Shown here: one piece after another, positions 3,168 through 17,156 of the stretch
How positions within the stretch are numbered: position 1 is the stretch's first letter
Layout: each line of letters begins with the position of its first letter
NCBI GenBank assembly: GCA_021801345.1
Contig: JAJYYA010000065.1
Coordinates: 1-64,000 of the forward strand
DNA from: Nitrospirota bacterium
Lineage (GTDB): Bacteria > Nitrospirota > Leptospirillia > Leptospirillales > Leptospirillaceae
DNA length: 64,000 nucleotides
Reading direction: 5' to 3'
Position numbers and translations under genes: made by a program
Notes under the pieces: generated by a model
Database searches by the model: none
What the model was told of the DNA's origin: nothing
What the model saw: only the letters and a program-made list of their open reading frames with translations

Positions 3168-3989
3168 TTACCAGGTATTGGGCTTATGGAGAGAGGTCCC
3201 TGGAATCGGGTTGGGGAGTTGAGAGGAAGCAAGAACATCCTTTCGGATTTTTTTTGTAAAATCTGCCTGATTCATGAGTTCTTTGGAGGGATGCCCCCCA
3301 TCATTGGGACAAATGAGTCCGATCAGTTTTCTGTGATGTTGTCTCACCAATCGCATCGCTTCGGCAAGATCGCTGTCATTTGAAATGACGACAGCACATT
3401 CATATGCGTCAAGCCATGCATCATGCAGAAGGTGGACGGCCAAATTGACATCCGATCCTTTTTCTTCTGTTTTGATGACTTGGACTTTTCTTGTGGTTTT
3501 TGTAGGATTGGCCAATGGAGCCCAAACCGAATGGGAAAGGAAATGACCGTAAATCACTTCAATCTCAGGGATGCACTGTTTAAGTGCCCGAATATAAGTC
3601 TGCTGGCGAATGGGCTGATTAGCGAAATATACCGTCCCGGCCGGGCGCGGTAAAGAAACAACGCTGCGGGCTCCAATCTGGGATACGCTTTTTACTTTTC
3701 CAGCCCCTCACACCGCCCCGAGCGGGCCGATTGAAGGGGGGACCAAAACGGGGAAAAGGGGGGAAAATCGCCCCCAAAAAACCTTTTCCCCACAACCGCT
3801 TGCGCGTTGTTTCTTGAGAGGATCGATCTTTCCGGATACCCGGGCCGTGAAATATTTGATTTTAACAATGTCGTGATGGGGGGCGAGAATCTTTTGACAG
3901 ACAACCTTGAGATCAAGCCATTTGTGGGGAGTTCTTTTGAGGGCGCTGTAATAGAGATTGAACCCATCGATATAGAGGAAGGTTTTCAT
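3168..3989 (-). pseudogene. broken NYN-domain (LabA/DUF88-like, PIN-fold) ribonuclease gene
   Basis: The N-terminal piece starts at ATG 3989 (GAGG just upstream) and reads MKTFLYIDGFNLYYSALK, the typical first strand and acidic residue of NYN nucleases, up to DPLKKQR near 3804. The C-terminal piece, from RQQTYIRALK near 3608 to the stop at 3168, carries the later NYN core (YGHFLSHS, VVISNDSDLAEAMRLV) with the conserved Asp residues. The two pieces are in the same frame. They are separated by about 195 bases of non-homologous sequence holding an in-frame TGA at 3708-3710. The simplest reading is an insertion or rearrangement that destroyed a gene of about 210 codons. A readthrough or programmed product is less likely. 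Confidence 0.75.
3653..3815. repeat. 163-bp segment bounded by a perfect 12-bp inverted repeat inside the NYN gene
   Basis: AAGAAACAACGC at 3653-3664 recurs as its exact reverse complement at 3804-3815. The right copy is coding sequence of the NYN gene (codons LKKQR). The DNA between is G- and C-tract-rich and unlike the NYN gene. It carries the in-frame stop. This could be a small insertion with terminal inverted repeats, or an inversion between the two copies. I cannot tell which from one genome. Confidence 0.5.
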
Positions 3990-7434: not shown

Positions 7435-7558
7435 GGGGGCCAAAAATCCTCATTGTCCGGGATCAGGCGAGTTTTCCCGTGTGCGGGAACCCCTTCCGTT
7501 TCGGAGGGTAAGGAGGTCTGTCTTTTCAAACCCTTTTCGGACAAGAAAAAAAATAGTG

Positions 7559-7587
7559 TTGACACCGGGGGGTGTCCGCGTTAACAT
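7559..7587 (+). promoter_or_regulatory. sigma70-type promoter of the metK cluster
   Basis: A perfect -35 TTGACA (7559-7564), a 17-base spacer and a -10 TAACAT (7582-7587). Transcription would begin near 7594, exactly at the 5' edge of the riboswitch-like leader. This supports both calls. Confidence 0.75.
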
Positions 7588-7592
7588 GAACC

Positions 7593-7669
7593 TAATCGAA
7601 GCGGTGGAGTGATTTGAGACGATTGCAACCACCTTAAAAAAAAGTGCTAAAAGTCCAGGATCCGCGACT
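7593..7669 (+). promoter_or_regulatory. SAM-riboswitch-like leader (S-box clan) upstream of metK
   Basis: The leader has the ordered core elements of the SAM-I/S-box clan: GGTGGAGTGA (about 7603), GCAACCAC (about 7625), an A-rich loop, then GTGCTAA and a TCC that can pair with the GGA of the first element. CAC/GTG forms the short P3-like helix, and TCG..CGG near 7596 can pair with CCGCGA near 7662 as P1. The kink-turn arm is shorter than in classical SAM-I, closer to SAM-I/IV variants. Its position between a strong promoter and a terminator before SAM synthetase fits feedback by SAM. A covariance-model search was not possible here. Confidence 0.65.
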
Positions 7670-7677
7670 TTATCGGT

Positions 7678-7712
7678 AAACCCTGTGCTTAATTGGCACC
7701 GGGTTTTTTTTT
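7678..7712 (+). terminator. intrinsic terminator, probable expression platform of the leader
   Basis: AAACCC(TG)TGC...GGCA(CC)GGGTTT forms a stem with one mismatch and an AATT-containing loop, followed by nine T residues. It lies between the SAM-binding core and metK, as expected for transcription-attenuation control. Confidence 0.7.
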
Positions 7713-7736
7713 GTCTTCAATCCATGGAGGGTTTTG

Positions 7737-8894
7737 ATGGCCAAGAGCCACTACCTGTTTACCTCGGAGTCCGTGACGGAAGGACATCCCGACAAGATGT
7801 GCGATCAGATCTCCGACGGGATCCTCGATGCGATCCTCGCTCAGGACCCCATGGCACGCGTGGCCTGCGAGTCGCTGACCACAACCGGACTCGTCATGCT
7901 CGCCGGAGAAATCACCGCGCGCCATAATGTCATGTACGACGAAGTGGCCCGGGATGTCGTCAAGGATATCGGCTATACCGATTCCGAGACCGGATTCGAC
8001 TACAAGACCTGTGCCGTCCTCACGACCCTCCATTCCCAGTCTCCCGACATCTCGATGGGAGTCGATACCGGCGGGGCAGGCGATCAGGGCCTCATGTTCG
8101 GCATGGCGGTAAACGAGACGGAAGAGCTCATGCCGATGCCGATCCTTCTGGCCCATCGCCTCACCCGCCAGCTGGCCCACCTTCGGAAGTCCGGCGTCCT
8201 TCCGTACCTCCGCCCGGACGGGAAGGCCCAGGTCACGCTGGAATATGACGAGAACGGCCCGGTGGCGGTCGACACGATCGTCGTTTCCACCCAGCACTCT
8301 CCCGATGTGACACAGGAGCAGATCTATGCCGATGTGATCGAGAAGGTGGTTCGGCCGGTGTTACCGGAGCATCTTCTTTCCAGCCGTCCGGTGACCTTCC
8401 ACATCAACCCCACCGGCCGCTTCGTCACAGGCGGTCCCCACGGGGATGCGGGACTTACCGGCCGCAAGATCATCGTCGACACCTACGGCGGCGCCGGCCG
8501 CCATGGCGGAGGAGCGTTTTCGGGCAAGGACCCCACGAAGGTGGACCGCTCGGCCTGCTATATGGCCCGCTATGTGGCTAAGAATATTGTGGGTGCCGGA
8601 CTTGCCAAAAAATGCGAGGTTCAGCTGGCCTATGCCATCGGCGTTGCGGAGCCGGTTTCGGTCCATGTGAACTCCTACCAGACCTCTCCGGTCTCCGACC
8701 GCCTGATCGAGAAGGTCGTCCGGGAGCTCTTCCCCCTGACGCCCAAGGGGATCATCGAGCATCTGAGACTTCGTCGCCCGATCTACCGCAAAACCGCCTC
8801 CTATGGCCATTTCGGCCGGAACGAGGAAGACTTCACCTGGGAGCGCCTCGACATGGCCGAGAGCCTTCGGCGCGAGACGGAGCGGTTGGCCTAG
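7737..8894 (+). CDS. metK: S-adenosylmethionine synthetase
   Basis: The 385-aa enzyme makes SAM from methionine and ATP. It shows the family signatures: [13 protein letters not shown] at the N-terminus (ATP-binding His), a [10 protein letters not shown] loop in the middle and [16 protein letters not shown] near residue 260, the P-loop-like GGGAFSGKD of MetK. The length matches the family. The start is ATG 7737, with GGAGG seven bases upstream, rather than the TTG one codon before. It is the first gene of the sulfur/methyl cluster and lies under the SAM-responsive leader. Confidence 0.97.
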
Positions 8895-8955
8895 CGCCTT
8901 TTGCCCTCTTATAACTTACTCTATGGACTGACCTAACGACAGAACGGGAGATCGA

Positions 8956-10212
8956 ATGAAGTACGATATCAAGGACAAAAAACTGGCCGACATGGGCGCC
9001 CGCCGCATCGAGTGGGCCGGACGCGACATGCCGGTGCTGGCCAATATTTCCAAGGACTTTGCCAAGGCGAAGCCTCTCAAGGGGATAAAGATCGCTGCCT
9101 GCCTCCACGTCACCAGTGAGACGGCGAACCTCATGAAGACGCTGAAGGCCGGGGGAGCCGACGTCATGCTCTGCGCCTCCAACCCCCTCTCCACCCAGGA
9201 CGATGTGGCGGCCTCCCTTGTCGTGAACGACGGGATCCCCGTCTTCGCAATCAAGGGGGAGGATCACGACACCTATTACAGCCATATCCGGGCCGTCCTC
9301 GAGGCCAAGCCCCAGATCACCATGGACGACGGGGCGGACCTCGTCTCGATGCTCCACTCCGATCTCAAGGCGCTCCTTCCTCATGTCATCGGGGGAACCG
9401 AGGAGACCACGACCGGCGTCATCCGTCTCAAGGCGATGGCCCAGAAGAAGGTTCTCTCCTATCCTATCGTGGCGGTGAACGACTCGGAGACGAAGCACCT
9501 CTTCGACAATCGCTACGGGACAGGCCAGTCCACCCTCGACGGGATCATGCGGGCTACCAACCGTCTTTTTGCCGGTTCGACGGTCGTCGTCTGCGGCTAC
9601 GGCTGGTGCGGACGCGGCATCGCCCGGCGCGCCTCCGGCATGGGAGCGAAGGTGGTCGTGACGGAAATCGATCCGATCAAGGGGCTCGAGGCGGCCATGG
9701 ACGGATACGCTGTGATGCCGATCCGCGAAGCAGCCAAGGTGGGCGACTTCTTCATCACCGTGACGGGGGATATCAACGTCATCGCCAAGGATGCGTTCAA
9801 GGTCATGAAGGACGGAGCGATCGTCTGCAACTCCGGCCATTTCAACGCCGAGATCGATATCCCGGCACTCGAGAAGCTTTCCACCAAGAAGTCCCTTCTT
9901 CGAGACTTCGTCGAGGAGTATGTCATGAAGGACGGCCGGCGGATCATGCTGCTGGGCGAAGGGCGCCTGATCAATCTGGCCTCGGCCGAGGGCCATCCCG
10001 CCCAGGTCATGGACATGAGCTTTGCCAACCAGGCCCTGGGTGCCGAATACATCGTAAAGCATGCCAAGAAGCTTCCCAAGGACGTCATCACCATCCCCCG
10101 CGAGGTGGATCGCGAGATCGCAAGCCGCAAGCTTGCCGCACTGGGAATCGCCATCGACACCCTGACGGCAGAGCAGGAAAAGTATCTGGCGTCCTGGGAA
10201 ATGGGGACCTAG
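8956..10212 (+). CDS. ahcY: adenosylhomocysteinase
   Basis: The 418-aa enzyme hydrolyses S-adenosylhomocysteine to adenosine and homocysteine, completing the methyl cycle begun by MetK. Visible signatures are [13 protein letters not shown] near the N-terminus, [12 protein letters not shown], the NAD-binding [18 protein letters not shown] (about residue 215) and SGHFNAEID. It is 61 bases downstream of metK with no terminator between, so it is likely co-transcribed and under the same leader. The length is typical of bacterial forms that lack the roughly 40-residue insertion. Confidence 0.97.
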
Positions 10213-10216
10213 TCCG

Positions 10217-10423
10217 ATGGACGTCCGCATCAACGGGAAGCCGGAGACCGTTCCCGACGGGAGTTCCGTCAAAGCTGTCCTGGCCCTTCGGGATCTCGAC
10301 CCGGCATTGGTGTCCGTCGAACACAACGGAAAGATTCTGGAGCGCTCCGACCTCGAGACGACCCTTTTGGCCGCGGGCGACGAGCTCGAAATTCTCTTTT
10401 TCATGGGAGGAGGCCAGGCCTGA
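10217..10423 (+). CDS. ThiS/MoaD-like sulfur carrier with Gly-Gly-Gln-Ala tail
   Basis: A 68-aa ubiquitin-fold carrier beginning MDVRINGKPE and ending MGGGQA. ThiS-family proteins carry sulfide as a thiocarboxylate on a terminal Gly-Gly. Here Gln-Ala follows, so the protein would need trimming before activation. The JAMM peptidase later in the cluster is the obvious candidate. It lies four bases after ahcY and just before the cysM-like synthase, so it probably feeds sulfur to cysteine or homocysteine synthesis rather than thiazole. A second gene at 41203 looks like the true thiazole ThiS. Confidence 0.85.
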   Translation: MDVRINGKPETVPDGSSVKAVLALRDLDPALVSVEHNGKILERSDLETTLLAAGDELEILFFMGGGQA

Positions 10424-10452
10424 TCCGGCCGGCATCCTCCGGAGCGACGCCA

Positions 10453-11397
10453 TTGAACAAGACTCCTGCGACGGGGGGGATCGACTCCCCCCTGATCGCA
10501 CTTATCGGAAAGACGCCTCTGGTGCCTCTTTCGGGGATCAGCTTCGACCTGGGCCGGACCGTTTTGGTCAAGCTCGAGTCGAAAAACCTCGGCGGAAGCA
10601 TCAAGGACCGTCCAGCACTTTTTATGATCGAGGATGCGCGGCGCAAGGGGCTTCTCAAATCCCGGGCCCCCATCGTCGAGGCCACGAGCGGAAACATGGG
10701 CATAGGTCTGGCCCAGATAGGGGTTCTCGCCCACCATCCTGTGACGATCGTTATGCCCGAAGGCATGAGTCAGGAGCGGGTCTCCCATCTCCGGGCGCTT
10801 GGCGCCACTGTGGAGCTGACCCCCGCCGCCGGCGGCATGAGCGCCGCCATCCGGCGCGCCGAGGAGATCGCCTCCGGTCTCCCGGGATCCTACATGCCCC
10901 GTCAGTTTGAAAACCCTGCCAACCCGGACTCCCATTACCGAACGACCGGACCGGAGATCGTCGAGGCGTTGGGAGGAACACCCGACGGCTTTGTTGCCGG
11001 CATCGGCACGGGCGGAACGATTACCGGCGTCGGCCGCTTTCTCAAGGAACAGGGGGAGGGGATTCCCGTCTGGGGGGTGGAGCCGGAAAGCTCTCCCGTC
11101 CTCTCCGGGGGAGCCCCAGGCCCTCACAGGATCCAGGGGATCGGGGCAGGATTCGTGCCCCGCATTCTCGACCGGAGCGTGGTCACCCGTATCTTCACCG
11201 TGACCGACCGGCAGGCGATCGACACGGCAGGAAGGCTTGCCCGGGAGGAGGGGATTTTGGCCGGCATTTCTTCGGGGGCCAACGTTTTCGCCGCGATCGC
11301 CCTGGCCAGGACGCTTCCCGAAGGATCGCGCGTCGTGACCGTCGTCTGCGACAGCTATGAGCGCTACTTCTCCATCGAAAAATATCTCCAGCTTTAG
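10453..11397 (+). CDS. cysM: cysteine synthase (CysK/CysM family, PLP-dependent)
   Basis: The 314-aa fold-type II PLP enzyme has LIGKTPLVPL, the Schiff-base lysine in GGSIKDRPA, the substrate loop EATSGNMGIGLA and the phosphate loop GIGTGGTITG (about residue 179). It makes cysteine from an activated serine and a sulfur donor. Its place between two sulfur-carrier systems and near a JAMM peptidase suggests a CysM that uses protein-bound thiocarboxylate, as in the Mycobacterium CysO-CysM-Mec route; this is inference. The start is TTG 10453 with GGAG upstream. The 3' end borders the IscB element. Confidence 0.9.
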   Translation: MNKTPATGGIDSPLIALIGKTPLVPLSGISFDLGRTVLVKLESKNLGGSIKDRPALFMIEDARRKGLLKSRAPIVEATSGNMGIGLAQIGVLAHHPVTIVMPEGMSQERVSHLRALGATVELTPAAGGMSAAIRRAEEIASGLPGSYMPRQFENPANPDSHYRTTGPEIVEALGGTPDGFVAGIGTGGTITGVGRFLKEQGEGIPVWGVEPESSPVLSGGAPGPHRIQGIGAGFVPRILDRSVVTRIFTVTDRQAIDTAGRLAREEGILAGISSGANVFAAIALARTLPEGSRVVTVVCDSYERYFSIEKYLQL

Positions 11398-11410
11398 GGA
11401 GGACGGCATG

Positions 11411-11719
11411 GACGTCAACCACCCCGCCGTGAACGGCGGAGCTTGAAAGGAGGTTCTTTTTAGCTCGGGTTGACCAGGGACAGCGGTACCCAACCCGCTA
11501 CGTTGACCATAGGCAAGAAGACCCACCCCGGGGTGCTTCCTCAGCTCCGGGCTCTGGAACGTGCGGATGCAGACAACCGAGAGGGCAAGGACGAAACGGT
11601 CCGCACGAGGGGGAGAGATCTCCTAAAGCCGGTGGTCGCCATTCCCGAGGGGAGACGCTTCGCAAGAGGCGCGTTACGGCGGAAAGCGCCAGTGAAACGT
11701 AAGTTTTTCAGGAGTTCTC
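11411..11719 (+). ncRNA. omega-RNA (IscB guide RNA) scaffold
   Basis: About 300 bases between the left element end and iscB hold no coding sequence but many possible stems: the terminal hairpin at 11424-11439, CGGGTTG/CAACCCG (about 11466-11503), CACCCCGGGGTG near 11523, and CGGTCCGCACG pairing with CGTGCGGATG farther upstream. This is the position and size known for IscB omega-RNAs. In that family the guide is the roughly 16 bases directly 5' of the scaffold, here the end of cysM and its downstream spacer. Transcription could come from the host operon. Confidence 0.75.
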
Positions 11720-13095
11720 ATGCAGGTTTTCGTACTCGACAAGCACAAAAAGCCTCTCATGCCCTGCCACCCGGCCCGGGCCCGGGAGCTTCTCGGGAAT
11801 GGGAAGGCGGTGGTCCACAAGAGGACCCCCTTCACCATCCGCCTGAAAGACCGGATCTCCGGGGAGGTCCAGCCGGTCCGGATCAAGATCGATCCGGGAT
11901 CGAAGATCACCGGAATTGCCGTGGTCCGGGAAGAGACGACCGTCTTCCCCGAGACGGGAGAGGCGGAGACGACCGCCCACGTCCTCTTCCTGGCGAAGCT
12001 TACCCACCGGGGCGGAGCGATCAGGGACCGGCTGACCGCCCGGAGAGCCTTCAGAAGACGACGACGGTCGAATCTCCGGCACCGGGCCCCGCGCTTCGAC
12101 AATCGGACGAAGCCGGAAGGGGGACTGGCCCCATCCCTGCAACACCGTGTCGATACGACCGCGGCGTGGGTGGATCGTTTCCGAAAACTGGTTCCGGTGA
12201 CTGCCATAAGTCAGGAACTCGTGCGGTTCAATATGCAGAAGATGGAAAATCCGGAGATTTCCGGAGCCGAGTATCAGCAGGGCACCTTGGCCGGGTACGA
12301 GGTTCGGGAATACCTGTTGGAGAAGTGGGGCCGGACCTGCGCCTACTGCGGAAAGACGGACGTTCCTCTGGAGGTCGACCATATCCACCCCCGGTCGAAG
12401 GGCGGGTCGGACCGGGTGGCAAACCTGACGTTCTCCTGCCGTCCCTGCAACAAGAAGAAGGGAAATCGCCCGGTCGAGGCATTTCTGGCGAAGAAGCCGG
12501 AGGTTCTGTCCCGGATTCTGGCAAAAGCCAAGGCCCCCCTCCGGGATGCCGCTGCGGTGAACGCCACCCGGTGGAATCTCTTCGAGCGGCTGAAACGGAC
12601 AGGTCTTCCGGTCGAAACAGGATCCGGAGGAAGGACGAAGTGGAACCGGACCCGGCTCGGGCTTCCGAAGGCCCACGCCCTCGACGCCGCCTGCGTCGGA
12701 ACCGTGGATCGGGTGGAAGGCGGCACCCGCCCCGTCTTGACAATCAAGGCCACGGGACGGGGAAGCTACCAGAGGACCCGCCTCGACGCTTTCGGATTCC
12801 CGAGAGGGATCCTCACCAGAAAGAAAGCACACTTTGGATTTCGGACCGGGGATCTGGTCCGGGCCGTTGTGACGACGGGCAAGAAGATCGGAACCTATGT
12901 CGGACGGGTGGCTGTCCGGGCTTCGGGGAGTTTCAACATCCAAGCCGGATCGGGACTGGTTCAGGGGATTTCTCACAAGGTTTGCCGGCTTCTCCAGAGA
13001 GCCGACGGGTACGGGTATTCGTTGGCAACGTCCAACAGAAAGGAGAGCGCATTCCTCCCCGGCATCAATGCCGGGGTTTCCATTGCGCGCAGAGG
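11411..13095 (+). mobile_element. IscB element (IS200/IS605-like, non-autonomous), about 1.7 kb
   Basis: The element holds an omega-RNA region followed by iscB and no tnpA. The left end has a perfect 7-bp hairpin (CCGCCGT/ACGGCGG, 11424-11439). The right end has a perfect 9-bp hairpin (CCCCGGCAT/ATGCCGGGG, 13057-13076), which lies inside the last codons of iscB. Left of the element the host DNA reads GGAGGACGGCATG; right of it ATGACAGAGG follows. Joining these restores a normal ribosome-binding site and start codon for the thiF-like gene. There is no target-site duplication beyond the shared ATG, which fits IS200/605-type single-strand transposition. The exact ends are uncertain by a few bases. 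Confidence 0.8.
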
Positions 13096-13099
13096 ATGA
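11720..13099 (+). CDS. iscB: IscB RNA-guided endonuclease (RuvC + HNH)
   Basis: The 459-aa protein has all IscB parts in order: the PLMP domain (KPLMP at 11-15), RuvC-I with Asp58 (KIDPGSKITG), an Arg-rich bridge helix (about 101-130), RuvC-II with Glu166 (SQELVRF), an HNH domain at 205-250 (CAYC, LEVDHIHP, CRPCNKKKG), RuvC-III with His319 and Asp322 (KAHALDAACVG), and a C-terminal target-interaction region ending FLPGINAGVSIARRG. Every catalytic residue I can place is intact, so the nuclease should be active. IscBs nick or cut DNA matching an omega-RNA guide next to a TAM and are ancestors of Cas9. The start ATG has CAGGAG upstream. The stop overlaps the next gene's ATG. Confidence 0.93.
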   Translation: MQVFVLDKHKKPLMPCHPARARELLGNGKAVVHKRTPFTIRLKDRISGEVQPVRIKIDPGSKITGIAVVREETTVFPETGEAETTAHVLFLAKLTHRGGAIRDRLTARRAFRRRRRSNLRHRAPRFDNRTKPEGGLAPSLQHRVDTTAAWVDRFRKLVPVTAISQELVRFNMQKMENPEISGAEYQQGTLAGYEVREYLLEKWGRTCAYCGKTDVPLEVDHIHPRSKGGSDRVANLTFSCRPCNKKKGNRPVEAFLAKKPEVLSRILAKAKAPLRDAAAVNATRWNLFERLKRTGLPVETGSGGRTKWNRTRLGLPKAHALDAACVGTVDRVEGGTRPVLTIKATGRGSYQRTRLDAFGFPRGILTRKKAHFGFRTGDLVRAVVTTGKKIGTYVGRVAVRASGSFNIQAGSGLVQGISHKVCRLLQRADGYGYSLATSNRKESAFLPGINAGVSIARRG

Positions 13100-13899
13100 C
13101 AGAGGAACAGATCGAGCGCTATTCGCGCCATATCCTCCTTCCCGAGGTCGGGGGCAAGGGACAGATTTCCCTTCTCTCCTCCCGGGTTCTCATCATCGGC
13201 GCCGGAGGGCTCGGGAGCCCCGCCGCCCTTTATCTCGCCGCCGCCGGGGTCGGAACCATCGGGCTCGTCGACATGGACGTGGTCGACCTCTCGAACCTCC
13301 AGCGGCAGATTCTCCATGGAACCCCGGATGTCGACCACCCCAAGGTCCTCTCCGGCAAGGAGAAGATCGAAGCCTTGAACCCTGACGTCAAAGTCGAGAC
13401 GTATCCCTTTGCGCTCACCGCCGCAAACGCCCGGGATGTCGTTTCGGGATACGACGTCATCCTCGACGGGACGGACAACTTTCCCGCGAAGTTTCTGATC
13501 AACGACCTGGCCGTTCTCTCGGGAAAACCCCTTGTCCACGGGGGAATCCTCCGCTTTGTCGGCCAGGTTCTTACCATTCGGCCCGGGGAGTCGGCCTGCT
13601 ACCGCTGCCTCTTCCGGGAGCCGCCGCCTGCCGGAGCCGTTCCGAGCTGTTCCGAGGCGGGAGTCCTGGGCGTCATCGCGGGAGTCATCGGAACGATCCA
13701 GGCCACCGAGGTGCTGAAGCTTCTTCTCGGGAAGGGGGATCTTCTGACCAACAGACTCCTGACCTATGACGCCCTGACGGTTGCATTCCGGAACGTCGCC
13801 GTCCGCAAGAACCCCAAGTGCCCCGTTTGCGGGGATCATCCTGTGATTACGGAGTTGATCGACTATGAACAGACCGTCTGCACCACACCGGGAGTCTGA
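13096..13899 (+). CDS. ThiF/MoeB-type adenylyltransferase (sulfur-carrier activase), copy 1
   Basis: The 267-aa E1-like enzyme adenylates the C-terminal glycine of a sulfur carrier. It shows ERYSRHILLPEVGG, the nucleotide-binding GAGGLGSPAALYLAAAG, DLSNLQRQ, DGTDNF, the catalytic Cys region PSCSEAGVLG and a CPVC zinc half-site. There is no C-terminal rhodanese domain, unlike MoeZ. Its ATG overlaps the iscB stop (ATGA), and its original ribosome-binding site now lies 1.7 kb upstream on the far side of the IscB element, so translation probably depends on coupling to iscB. It overlaps thrC by 35 bases. Confidence 0.9.
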   Translation: MTEEQIERYSRHILLPEVGGKGQISLLSSRVLIIGAGGLGSPAALYLAAAGVGTIGLVDMDVVDLSNLQRQILHGTPDVDHPKVLSGKEKIEALNPDVKVETYPFALTAANARDVVSGYDVILDGTDNFPAKFLINDLAVLSGKPLVHGGILRFVGQVLTIRPGESACYRCLFREPPPAGAVPSCSEAGVLGVIAGVIGTIQATEVLKLLLGKGDLLTNRLLTYDALTVAFRNVAVRKNPKCPVCGDHPVITELIDYEQTVCTTPGV

Positions 13900-15172
13900 T
13901 ACGGCCAGGGGAGAAGGCTCTTCGCCCTCTTCCACGGCTTCTAAGATAAAAGGTCTCAAGTGCCGCGAGTGCGGCCGGCTCTATCCGGCCGTTGCGATGC
14001 ATATCTGCGAGTTTTGCTTCGGTCCTCTCGAGGTCGACTACGACTATGAGGCGATCGCGGCTCGTCTTACGCGCCGTTCGATCGAGGAGGGGCCCAAGTC
14101 TCTCTGGCGCTATCACGAGCTGCTTCCCGTGACGGGAGCTCCGACGGTGGGGCTCCATGCCGGTATGACCCCGCTGGTTCACGCGAAGCGTCTGGGCAAG
14201 CTCCTGGGTCTCGACAACCTCTACCTGAAGAACGATACGGTCAACCATCCGACCCTTTCCTTCAAGGACCGGGTGGTGGCCGTTGCCATGACCCGGGCTC
14301 GGGAGCTGGGGTTCGATACGGTGGCCTGCGCCTCGACCGGCAATCTGGCCAACTCCGTCTCGGCCCACGCCGCAAGCGTCGGCATGAAGTGCTTCGTCTT
14401 CATTCCTCACGATCTCGAGGCCGGAAAGATCCTCGGCAACCTGATCTACAGCCCGACCGTGGTGGCCGTCCGGGGAAACTACGACGACGTCAACAGGCTC
14501 TGCAGCGAGATCGGCGGAGAGTATCCCTGGGCCTTCGTCAACATCAACATCCGGCCCTACTACGCGGAAGGCTCCAAGTCGCTGGCCTTCGAGACGGCCG
14601 AGCAGCTGGGGTGGAGGATTCCCGACCAGGTCGTGGTGCCGATCGCCTCCGGCTCTCTTCTCACAAAAATCAAGAAGGGATTCCAGGAGTTCGAGAAGCT
14701 GGGGATCGTTCCGGCCAATCCGGGCCTTCGGGTCAACGGCGCCCAGGCGGAGGGGTGCTCCCCCGTCTACCGGGCCTTCATCTCCGGCAAGAACCACCTC
14801 GTGCCGGTCAAGCCGAACACCATCGCCAAGTCCCTGGCCATCGGCAACCCCGCCGACGGTTTCTACTCGCTTGACGTGGTCTTCAAGTCGAAGGGAGCGA
14901 TCGCTGCCGCCACAGATCCCGAGATCGTCGAAGGGATGAAGCTTCTGGCCGAGACGGAAGGGATCTTTGCAGAAACGGCGGGAGGCGTGACGGTCGCCTC
15001 CCTGAAGAAGCTTTGCGAGGAAGGGCGCATCAAACGCTCCGAGCTGACGGTCGCCTACATCACCGGCAACGGGCTCAAGACCATGGAGGCCCTATCGGGA
15101 GCGCTTCCCGAGCCGGTCTCCATCGACGCCTCTCTCGCCTCCTTCCGGAAGAACGTAAACCCCTCGAACTGA
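13865..15172 (+). CDS. thrC: threonine synthase
   Basis: The 435-aa PLP enzyme converts O-phosphohomoserine to threonine. An N-terminal zinc-ribbon-like segment (CRECGRLYPAVAMHICEFC) precedes the fold-type II core with the PLP lysine in TLSFKDRVV, ASTGNLANS and PIASGSLLTKI. This is the shorter, archaeal/plant-like class. The start at 13865 lies inside the preceding gene; a later start is possible because the first 30 residues are low in homology features. Placement among sulfur-carrier genes links the threonine and methionine branches, both from homoserine. Confidence 0.9.
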   Translation: MNRPSAPHRESDTARGEGSSPSSTASKIKGLKCRECGRLYPAVAMHICEFCFGPLEVDYDYEAIAARLTRRSIEEGPKSLWRYHELLPVTGAPTVGLHAGMTPLVHAKRLGKLLGLDNLYLKNDTVNHPTLSFKDRVVAVAMTRARELGFDTVACASTGNLANSVSAHAASVGMKCFVFIPHDLEAGKILGNLIYSPTVVAVRGNYDDVNRLCSEIGGEYPWAFVNINIRPYYAEGSKSLAFETAEQLGWRIPDQVVVPIASGSLLTKIKKGFQEFEKLGIVPANPGLRVNGAQAEGCSPVYRAFISGKNHLVPVKPNTIAKSLAIGNPADGFYSLDVVFKSKGAIAAATDPEIVEGMKLLAETEGIFAETAGGVTVASLKKLCEEGRIKRSELTVAYITGNGLKTMEALSGALPEPVSIDASLASFRKNVNPSN

Positions 15173-15195
15173 CGAAAAAAACGAAAGGAATCTCC

Positions 15196-15477
15196 ATGTC
15201 CGTTGTCGTACGCATCCCCACCCCCCTGAGAAAGCTCACCGGCAACCAGGGTGAGGTTCGCGAGGAGGGAGGAACGGTCCGCGAGATCCTCGACGGCCTC
15301 GAGAGCCACTATCCGGGGATCCGGGAGCGCCTGACCGACGAGGCGGGGGAGCTTCGCCGCTTCATCAATATCTACCTCAACGAAGAAGACATCCGCTTTG
15401 CGGAGGGCCTCGACACGAAGGTCAAGGCGGGCGACGAGGTCTCGATCATCCCCGCGATCGCCGGAGGCGCCCGATGA
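15196..15477 (+). CDS. CysO/MoaD-like sulfur carrier with Gly-Gly-Ala-Arg tail
   Basis: A 93-aa ubiquitin-fold protein very like mycobacterial CysO in length and landmarks: VRIPTPLRKLTGN near the N-terminus, RRFINIYLNEEDIRF in the middle and SIIPAIAGG near the end. After Gly-Gly come Ala-Arg, so maturation by a peptidase is needed before thiocarboxylation. The ATG at 15196 has AAAGGAA upstream. The gene overlaps the NIL-domain gene by four bases and precedes a ThiF-like activase and a JAMM peptidase, the partners expected for a CysO cysteine route. Confidence 0.88.
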   Translation: MSVVVRIPTPLRKLTGNQGEVREEGGTVREILDGLESHYPGIRERLTDEAGELRRFINIYLNEEDIRFAEGLDTKVKAGDEVSIIPAIAGGAR

Positions 15478-15716
15478 CCCAGATGCGGCTCCATTTGACC
15501 TTCCCCGAGGAGCGAGTCCGGGAGCCGATCGTCTACGAGATCTGCAAGACCTTTCCGGTCGTCGTCAATATCCGGCGGGCGGATATCTCAGAGGACAGCG
15601 GCTGGATGGAGCTCGAGATGGACGGGGAACTTGCCGATATCGAACGCACAGTCGCCTATCTGCGCGACCGGGGTGTCGTCGTCGCCCCTCTCGAGAAGAG
15701 CATTCTCGAAGGATAG
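15474..15716 (+). CDS. NIL-domain protein
   Basis: An 80-aa stand-alone NIL domain (ferredoxin-like fold, also found at the C-terminus of the methionine importer ATPase MetN, where it binds methionine). The core reads LHLTFPEERVREPIVYEI, VNIRRADISEDSGWMELEM and a C-terminal helix with LRDRGVVVAPLE. Free NIL proteins occur beside homocysteine-forming genes in anaerobes and archaea. Here it is translationally coupled to the CysO-like gene, so it may sense methionine or assist sulfur transfer; both are inference. Confidence 0.8.
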   Translation: MTQMRLHLTFPEERVREPIVYEICKTFPVVVNIRRADISEDSGWMELEMDGELADIERTVAYLRDRGVVVAPLEKSILEG

Positions 15717-15732
15717 GAAGAAGGAGAACGTC

Positions 15733-16545
15733 ATGGCCTTTCGCGAGGACCAGATCGCACGCTACAGCCGTCACATCATTCTGAAGGAGGTCGGAGGCCG
15801 GGGGCAGGAGAAGCTTCTCTCAGCCCGGGTTCTCGTGATCGGGGCCGGGGGGCTCGGAAGTCCGGTGGCCATGTATCTTGCCGCCGCCGGGGTCGGAACC
15901 ATCGGCCTCGTCGACATGGATGTGGTCGATGTCTCCAATCTCCAACGCCAGATCATGCACTCCCAGGCGACCGTGGGCGTCCCCAAGGTCGTCTCGGGGG
16001 CCCGAACCCTCTCCCGCATGAATCCCGACGTCACGGTGGTTCCGATCCAGGACCGGCTGACGGCCGAGAATGCCATGGAGCTCTTTTCCGGCTACGATGT
16101 CATCGTGGACGGGTCGGACAACTTCGGAACCCGCTATATCGTCAACGACGCCGCCTTCTTCCTGAAGAAGACGCTCGTTTCGGGCTCCATCCTCCGCTTC
16201 GAAGGACAGGTGACCGTTCTCGAGGGCCACACCGGGGCCCCCTGCTACCGGTGTCTCTATCCCGAGGCGCCCCCTCCCGGGCTTGTTCCCTCCTGCTCCG
16301 AGGCCGGGGTTCTGGGGGTGCTGGCCGGCACGATCGGGACCTTGCAGGCCGCCGAGGTGGTCAAGAAGATTCTCGGGGTCGGGGAGCTTCTGACGGGCCG
16401 CCTCCTTCTCTACGATGCGCTTTCCATGTCCTTCCGCAAGCTGCGGGTCCCCAAGGACCCCCATTGCGCCCTCTGCGGTCCGAAGGCGACCATCACGACC
16501 GTCTCGGGCTCCTCGGAGTGGGTCTGCCAGATGCCGGCCTCCTGA
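15733..16545 (+). CDS. ThiF/MoeB-type adenylyltransferase, copy 2
   Basis: This 270-aa paralogue of the gene at 13096 has the same motifs: ARYSRHIILKEVGG, GAGGLGSPVAMYLAAAG, DVSNLQRQ, DGSDNF, PSCSEAGVLGVLAG and CALCGP. It starts at ATG 15733 with AAGGAG upstream. The two copies sit one per carrier protein, so each may serve one carrier. It overlaps the JAMM gene (TGATG). No rhodanese domain is present, so the sulfur donor enzyme must be separate. Confidence 0.9.
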   Translation: MAFREDQIARYSRHIILKEVGGRGQEKLLSARVLVIGAGGLGSPVAMYLAAAGVGTIGLVDMDVVDVSNLQRQIMHSQATVGVPKVVSGARTLSRMNPDVTVVPIQDRLTAENAMELFSGYDVIVDGSDNFGTRYIVNDAAFFLKKTLVSGSILRFEGQVTVLEGHTGAPCYRCLYPEAPPPGLVPSCSEAGVLGVLAGTIGTLQAAEVVKKILGVGELLTGRLLLYDALSMSFRKLRVPKDPHCALCGPKATITTVSGSSEWVCQMPAS

Positions 16546-16988
16546 TGGGGGGGGCGGAGGAGATCCTCCTTCCGCCGGAGATTCTCCGGGAGATCCTCGA
16601 TCACTGCCGGAGTCTCCGGCCTGAAGAGGCTTGCGGCCTTGTCGCCTCGGACGCCTCGGGCCGCCCGGTGGCCGTTATTCCGGTGACGAACAGCCTTCGC
16701 TCTCCGGTCCGCTACCAGATGGAGACGCGGGAGCAGTTTGCGGCAATGAAGAGAATCCGCAACGAAGGGTGGTCCCTCTTCGCGATCTTCCACTCTCACC
16801 CCCTCTCCGACCCGATCCCTTCTCCGACCGACATCCGCCAGGCCTTCTATCCGGAGGCCTATATGATCATCGTGGGGCTCGAAAGAGAGCCGGCCGTCGT
16901 CCGGGGGTATGTCGTCCGCGAGGGAGAGGTCTTCGAACGCCCTCTCCGCACCGAGCTGTCGTCTTCTTCCGGCGAATCCCCCCCTTAA
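16545..16988 (+). CDS. JAMM/MPN+ metallopeptidase (Mec/HcyD-like)
   Basis: A 147-aa zinc peptidase with the full JAMM signature: an upstream Glu (PEEACGL, about 27-28) and HSHP at 83-86 followed by Ser93 and Asp96. Relatives cut after the terminal Gly-Gly of ubiquitin-like carriers, for example Mec, which frees cysteine from CysO-Cys, and HcyD, which trims a carrier before activation. Both carriers in this cluster end in Gly-Gly plus two residues, which matches such a job. The start overlaps the preceding stop. Confidence 0.9.
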   Translation: MGGAEEILLPPEILREILDHCRSLRPEEACGLVASDASGRPVAVIPVTNSLRSPVRYQMETREQFAAMKRIRNEGWSLFAIFHSHPLSDPIPSPTDIRQAFYPEAYMIIVGLEREPAVVRGYVVREGEVFERPLRTELSSSSGESPP

Positions 16989-17156
16989 CCGGTCGGTCTG
17001 TTTTGGAGGGACTCGGCCGCAATGGCTTGGACCCCCTTTTTTGCGCCCCGTCCGGAGGCGCTTCCAAAGACTTGTCTAGATTGACCTTTTGCCGATCCTC
17101 TTCTATTCTTGACGAAAGGTTCGGCACTTCCTTATCCTTCCCGGAGAAAAGACGAC

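Follow-up and report, generated by a model that had tools for sequence, protein, structure and literature searches.

A SAM-II riboswitch in a Nitrospirota bacterium very probably acts as a transcriptional OFF switch over the genes of the methyl cycle and of a sulfur-carrier pathway, reaching to the gene for a JAMM protease-like protein. It lies on contig JAJYYA010000065.1 of assembly GCA_021801345.1 (the source genome), of which a stretch of 64,000 nucleotides was analyzed; this whole stretch is called the window, and all positions refer to it. Families of the phylum are designated f1 (that of the source genome), f4, f7, f24, f28 and f43.

Class, promoter and terminator of the metK leader

The leader in front of metK comprises the following elements:

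7559-7564 and 7582-7587, + strand: sigma-70-type promoter, TTGACA and TAACAT separated by 17 nt
7598-7660, + strand: SAM-II aptamer (RF01726, 47.3 bits)
7603-7607 with 7629-7633, + strand: helix P1 of the aptamer
7623-7626 with 7646-7650, + strand: pseudoknot P2 of the aptamer
7644-7659, + strand: pseudoknot 3' strand and tail (GUGCUAAAAGUCCAGG), the proposed 5' strand of an antiterminator (from folding and leader comparison)
7678-7712, + strand: intrinsic terminator, stem 7678-7688 with 7696-7706, U-run 7704-7712
7682-7699, + strand: proposed 3' strand of the antiterminator (-16.7 kcal/mol; 3 of 200 shuffles as stable)

The promoter matches the consensus at 10 of 12 positions and is the best of seven promoter-like sites between 7000 and 19500, where shuffled sequences average 2.2 sites. 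Across the phylum, TTGACN at 16-18 nt spacing precedes 25 of 27 aptamers. The promoter sits a few nucleotides before P1, as described for SAM-II (Corbino 2005, PMC1273637), and transcription would start near position 7594, about 4 nt upstream of the aptamer. At the other end of the leader, the terminator hairpin (7678-7706) has a computed stability of -14.6 kcal/mol, reached by none of 200 shuffles, and is followed by nine T (7704-7712). A Shine-Dalgarno-like GGAGGG separates the terminator from metK, which starts at 7737 and was identified with 580 bits (TIGR01034). Promoter, terminator and metK had been named in the original prediction, and all three were borne out.

The same prediction had ascribed S-box-clan core elements to the leader, with a kink-turn arm shorter than in SAM-I, and had proposed an Rfam covariance search as a check. 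This search did return a SAM riboswitch, of another class: positions 7598-7660 match the SAM-II pseudoknot riboswitch RF01726 with 47.3 bits against a gathering threshold of 44 (E = 6.4e-6 when the window was searched, E = 2.4e-8 for the 241 nt from 7500 to 7740). The match covers the entire model (positions 1-60), and the sister model RF00521 came second with 34.3 bits, under its cut-off of 36. The leader before metK is the only RF01726 match in the source genome. SAM-I, SAM-IV and the SAM-I-IV-variant were absent among the nine matches at E <=10 in the Rfam search of 7500-7740; in addition, a covariance search with RF00162 (SAM-I) gave no match in the source genome, and across 41 genomes SAM-I was detected in three, all of family f4. 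Riboswitches of the SAM-II class fold as a pseudoknot and lack a kink-turn. Therefore, the S-box assignment and the remark on the kink-turn arm, which does not apply to this class, were wrong, whereas a leader of SAM-sensing kind with promoter and terminator before metK was correctly recognized. Membership of the S-box clan (SAM-I, SAM-IV or a variant), with the kink-turn arm shortened, has in its favor that SAM-I leaders likewise stand before metK between a promoter and a terminator, but with no S-box-clan family at E <=10 and the full SAM-II model matched, the covariance search ruled it out and we give it practically no chance. The covariance match thus points to a SAM-sensing leader of the SAM-II class, which would bind SAM.

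For comparison, 26 of the 27 leaders were aligned (25 distinct sequences), leaving out the variant L026, which the sequence pattern had missed. All five pairs of P1 are kept in 25/25 distinct leaders, with one compensatory change from G-C to C-G. The four pairs of the pseudoknot P2, as described for SAM-II (PMC6061858), are likewise found in all 25; because they are invariant, P2 is without covariation support. The P2a extension helix can form three to four pairs in 26/26 leaders, but 410 of 2000 shuffles did as well, so that statistical support for it is lacking.

A candidate antiterminator formed by the aptamer strand

Folding and comparison of the leaders revealed a second pairing partner for the 3' strand of the pseudoknot. 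The predicted antiterminator consists of three blocks: GUGCUAA (7644-7650) with UUGGCAC (7693-7699), AAGU (7651-7654) with GCUU (7687-7690), and CAGG (7656-7659) with CCUG (7682-7685). It uses both arms of the terminator together with the pseudoknot strand; therefore, a SAM-bound pseudoknot excludes the antiterminator, which in turn excludes the terminator. By folding and comparison, terminator and antiterminator are mutually exclusive and share the ligand-binding strand.

When folding was computed for transcripts cut off at the position matching C7699, the antiterminator formed with a probability of 0.58-1.00 and the terminator stem with 0.00 in 26/26 leaders. When the aptamer strand was held unavailable, the terminator formed with a probability of 0.99-1.00, again in all 26. 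The interaction gain provided by the real upstream strand was matched by 0 of 200 dinucleotide shuffles for the window and by 0 to 24 of 200 across the 26 leaders. From these pairings a switching cycle can be proposed. At low SAM, the strand 7644-7659 would be free and would pair with 7682-7699 as polymerase passes, and the resulting antiterminator would let transcription read into metK and beyond. At high SAM, the pseudoknot would lock 7646-7650, and probably also the tail, in the binding pocket; the 3' arm GGCAC would then pair with GUGC (7685-7688), the terminator would form and a leader RNA of roughly 120 nt would be released.

A simpler arrangement would be a SAM-II aptamer followed by a constitutive terminator, with most transcripts stopping at 7712, SAM acting weakly or via RNA stability, and other promoters serving the downstream genes. 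Indeed, the full leader of the window at equilibrium without SAM prefers the terminator (P 0.99), the aptamer being mispaired as well in that fold, and the structure with the antiterminator enforced is 2.6 kcal/mol less stable than the equilibrium fold. Therefore, switching must depend on folding during transcription, which our calculations represent by a single stopping point. There is also a precedent, since a terminator near the SAM-II aptamer of Sinorhizobium meliloti metA was not predicted to respond to SAM (PMC9373788). In that case, however, the Shine-Dalgarno sequence directly follows the aptamer according to the same paper, whereas here the Shine-Dalgarno-like sequence lies beyond the terminator. 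The antiterminator found at the critical transcript length in 26/26 leaders also speaks against a constitutive terminator, as does the preservation of a mismatch at U7684 in the terminator alongside a preserved antiterminator pair. We consider it improbable.

U7684 (alignment column 106) appears to be the most telling position for the antiterminator. In 17 of the 25 distinct leaders it has no terminator partner, while its combination with A7657 (column 67) in the antiterminator is A-U in 18, G-C in three, G-U in two and unpaired in two. In family f7 both sides have changed together, U7684 to C and A7657 to G. This compensatory change occurred once, within one clade, and 245 of 500 shuffles equal it on two covariation measures. 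Moreover, 35 of 138 other, unrelated terminators pair with the aptamer strand of the window no less well than the terminator that follows it; therefore, the window taken alone is no proof of a designed antiterminator. The preferred reading, in which the aptamer strand doubles as antiterminator, provides a model of the switch at the level of individual pairings.

Genes behind the switch and probable extent of the controlled unit

The run of genes from metK to the JAMM gene contains, apart from an inserted IscB element:

7737-8894, + strand: metK, methionine adenosyltransferase (TIGR01034, 580 bits)
8956-10212, + strand: ahcY, adenosylhomocysteinase (TIGR00936, 628.8 bits)
10217-10423, + strand: small ThiS-like sulfur carrier ending in ...FFMGGGQA (named from sequence and conservation)
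10453-11397, + strand: cysteine synthase family enzyme, cysK/cysM-like (TIGR01139, 375.5 bits)
13096-13899, + strand: ThiF/MoeB-like E1 enzyme, first copy (family search)
13865-15172, + strand: threonine-synthase-like PLP enzyme (TIGR00260, 289.6 bits; the true start may lie inside the ORF)
15193-15477, + strand: CysO/SAMP1-like sulfur carrier ending in ...AGGAR (NF041918, 67.8 bits)
15474-15716, + strand: NIL-domain protein (PF09383, 57.8 bits)
15724-16545, + strand: ThiF/MoeB-like E1 enzyme, second copy (family search)
16539-16988, + strand: JAMM (Prok-JAB) protease-like protein (PF14464, 69.2 bits)

ThiS-fold carriers, E1-like ThiF, JAMM protein and PLP synthase thus make up the set of a protein-thiocarboxylate relay within one cluster. 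Residues follow the GG of the second carrier in 13/13 clusters including the window, and follow the glycines of the first carrier in 12/13, with a tail of eight in L148; the carrier of L147 ends in GGGG. We propose that the JAMM protein trims the carriers, which would fit the residues after GG, as in the CysO-Mec and HcyS-HcyD pairs. With the desampylase model it scored 61 bits, below the cut-off of 130. The source genome also contains one strong match to PF01053 (Cys/Met metabolism PLP enzymes), a family matched in 31/31 genomes and over the cut-off in 29; therefore, thiocarboxylate chemistry of the cluster may not be the sole route. As a partner for the NIL-domain protein, COG1900-type homocysteine synthesis (PF01837) was considered and dropped, being found in 0 of the 19 f1 genomes searched.

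The original prediction had considered that control by the leader might extend as far as the JAMM gene, and for this part the support is indirect, coming from gene order, short gaps, weak terminators and the layout in family f7. The switch and, behind it, the order metK-ahcY-thiS-cysM-thiF-thrC-like-cysO-like-NIL-thiF-JAMM recur in 11/11 family loci from five genera (in one of the 11, L154, the contig stretch ends in JAMM). Within the operon the genes overlap or are separated by 4-61 nt, the IscB insertion excepted. Between metK and the insertion, the terminator-like sites found by a scan were all weak, and on the + strand from 7587 to 17081 no promoter-like site at the scan threshold. The JAMM gene is followed, after a gap of 165 nt, by genes for a response regulator and a histidine kinase with promoter-like sites of their own, so that the controlled unit probably ends near 16988. 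Two such sites lie next to each other at 17081-17138, just before this gene pair.

It is conceivable that the riboswitch controls metK and ahcY alone and that the sulfur-carrier genes are under their own control. Loci of families f24, f28 and f43 have metK-ahcY behind the switch and no sulfur genes within the reach of the contigs (4/4 loci), and the 61-nt gap between metK and ahcY could hold a weak promoter missed by the scan. The gene order fixed across five genera, the short gaps and overlaps and the lack of promoter-like sites at the scan threshold argue against this separation, and so does family f7, in which the switch lies directly before JAMM-thiS-cysM-thrC-like, without metK, in 3/3 loci. 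In both f7 loci whose stretches extend further, the cysO-like carrier, thiF and NIL genes come next; one of these two, L158, has a gene read from its sequence as TusA-like between the thrC-like and cysO-like genes. We therefore regard control of metK and ahcY alone as unlikely. Joint control is preferred, and the f7 layout together with the gene order suggests SAM feedback on the protein-thiocarboxylate sulfur relay, in two arrangements in two families. With this reading, the role of the cluster in methionine and cysteine supply becomes directly testable.

The run is interrupted by a mobile element:

11414-13095, + strand: IscB element, inserted exactly and without target duplication as judged from the uninterrupted site of the nearest relative
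11414-11660, + strand: omega/HEARO RNA of the element
11720-13099, + strand: IscB open reading frame of the element

That iscB and its guide RNA belong to the SAM-controlled run, as had been considered, holds for their position inside it; the element itself is an insertion, absent from the same operon site in 12/12 relatives examined (the nearest relative and the 11 family loci). SAM control of IscB is therefore possible, but it would be an incidental by-product of the landing place. HEARO elements are known to prefer ATGA. Including six other long copies examined in the source genome, of which one is truncated on the left where its contig stops, IscB copies lie directly 5' of ATGA in 7/7 cases, two of which were placed by eye where the alignment was a few bases short. 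The site matches the NTGA motif of IsrB (PMC9581776). In four of the seven copies the TGA within the target ATGA serves as stop codon of IscB, while its ATG opens an ORF of 191-541 aa; stop and start thus overlap, and insertion links IscB to the gene that follows. At 13057-13076, shortly before the element's right end, lies a GC-rich hairpin, which recurs in the same place in other copies with constant shape and varying sequence. This is as expected of an end recognized by the transposase; the hairpin could also dampen transcription into thiF.

The guide of IscB-family elements is copied from the left flank and so needs a host promoter. In the window this would be the SAM-II-controlled one, unless a nearer promoter went unseen. 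A more far-reaching idea is that SAM-II directly gates, in Nitrospirota, a ubiquitin-like (protein-thiocarboxylate) sulfur-assimilation operon and, in the source genome alone, also the inserted IscB, whose guide could be transcribed from the host promoter only and would match the empty site of the element. We hold this combination to be rather doubtful; if true, a shortage of SAM would activate an RNA-guided nuclease directed against alleles that lack the element.

Distribution of the element and relation to known systems

The SAM-II element was detected in 25 of 395 genomes of the phylum, in 12 of these over the curated cut-off. Family f1 accounts for 18 of its 21 genomes, the three without the element being 71-80% complete; the others belong to f7 (three genomes), f24 (two), f28 (one) and f43 (one). 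A pattern scan of named genomes yielded at least 118 SAM-II-like stretches, mostly Bacteroidota by title, and among the matches listed are also Fermentibacteria-type, Tectomicrobia and Nitrospirae titles. Among 80 stretches examined (of the at least 118), 12 have a terminator as scored here, namely all six Nitrospirae and six of Fermentibacteria type, and 68 have none. Of five regions retrieved in another step, the analysis covered one, L166.

Three side observations concern other SAM riboswitches. In the Fermentibacteria-type loci L033, L070, L072 and L074, SAM-II stands before metK and is followed by a terminator with GACGGC in its arm. This sequence can form a complete or partial helix with GCYGUC, located immediately behind the aptamer strand; by their sequence, such leaders can follow a similar antiterminator logic in different letters. 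Genomes G004 and G013, of the same genus, each have an additional SAM-II, again accompanied by a promoter-like sequence and a terminator (L159, about position 3535 on the reverse strand; L160, about 779) before a small conserved ORF, between genes that read as diguanylate-cyclase-like and secretion-type. In family f4 (G023:C38 and G032:C6), SAM-I lies roughly 200-300 bases before a PF01837 homocysteine-biosynthesis gene on the same strand, which places another SAM riboswitch class beside another sulfur route.

With the SAM-II models RF01726 ("SAM-II long loops") and RF00521 (SAM_alpha), the leader shares P1, the H-type pseudoknot, the blocks GAUUUG, AUUGCAACC and GUGCUAAA, a promoter just upstream of P1 and methionine/SAM genes downstream. 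RF01726 is reported for "Bacteroidetes, marine" (PMC2864571), whereas here it occurs in Nitrospirota with a transcription terminator. Most SAM-II riboswitches are considered transcriptional (PMC6061858), and the order promoter-aptamer-terminator has been described for alpha-proteobacteria (Corbino 2005, PMC1273637) and for S. meliloti (PMC9373788). A close counterpart in mechanism is S. meliloti metZ, for which a Rho-independent terminator is predicted to form upon SAM binding and an sRNA of about 100 nt was seen (PMC9373788). Both systems share predicted SAM-dependent Rho-independent termination with a short leader RNA; they differ in target genes and phylum, and for metZ the changes of sRNA and mRNA come from measurements in cells, whereas the present results are computed. 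SAM-II control by termination would thereby be extended to Nitrospirota.

In its HEARO RNA upstream of IscB and its insertion 5' of ATGA, the inserted element resembles IscB/HEARO elements of the IS200/605 kind, from which the present copy differs by its location inside a SAM-II-led operon. Our literature search, to which most subscription journals were closed, returned no paper on SAM-II in Nitrospirota or Leptospirillum and none that ties a thiocarboxylate sulfur cluster to a riboswitch; a search on the HcyS pathway gave nothing relevant. While the SAM-II class is known, its location before a putative protein-carried sulfur pathway was thus not found described, and the target operon is unusual. 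CysO-CysM-Mec and HcyS-HcyF-HcyD are thiocarboxylate pathways with ThiS-fold carriers, a ThiF-like E1, a JAMM protein and a PLP enzyme. The present cluster shares with them the grouping of E1, JAMM and PLP enzyme genes and carriers that end in glycines plus extra residues; it differs, at the level of genes, by two carriers, two E1 copies, a NIL protein and a threonine-synthase-like enzyme.
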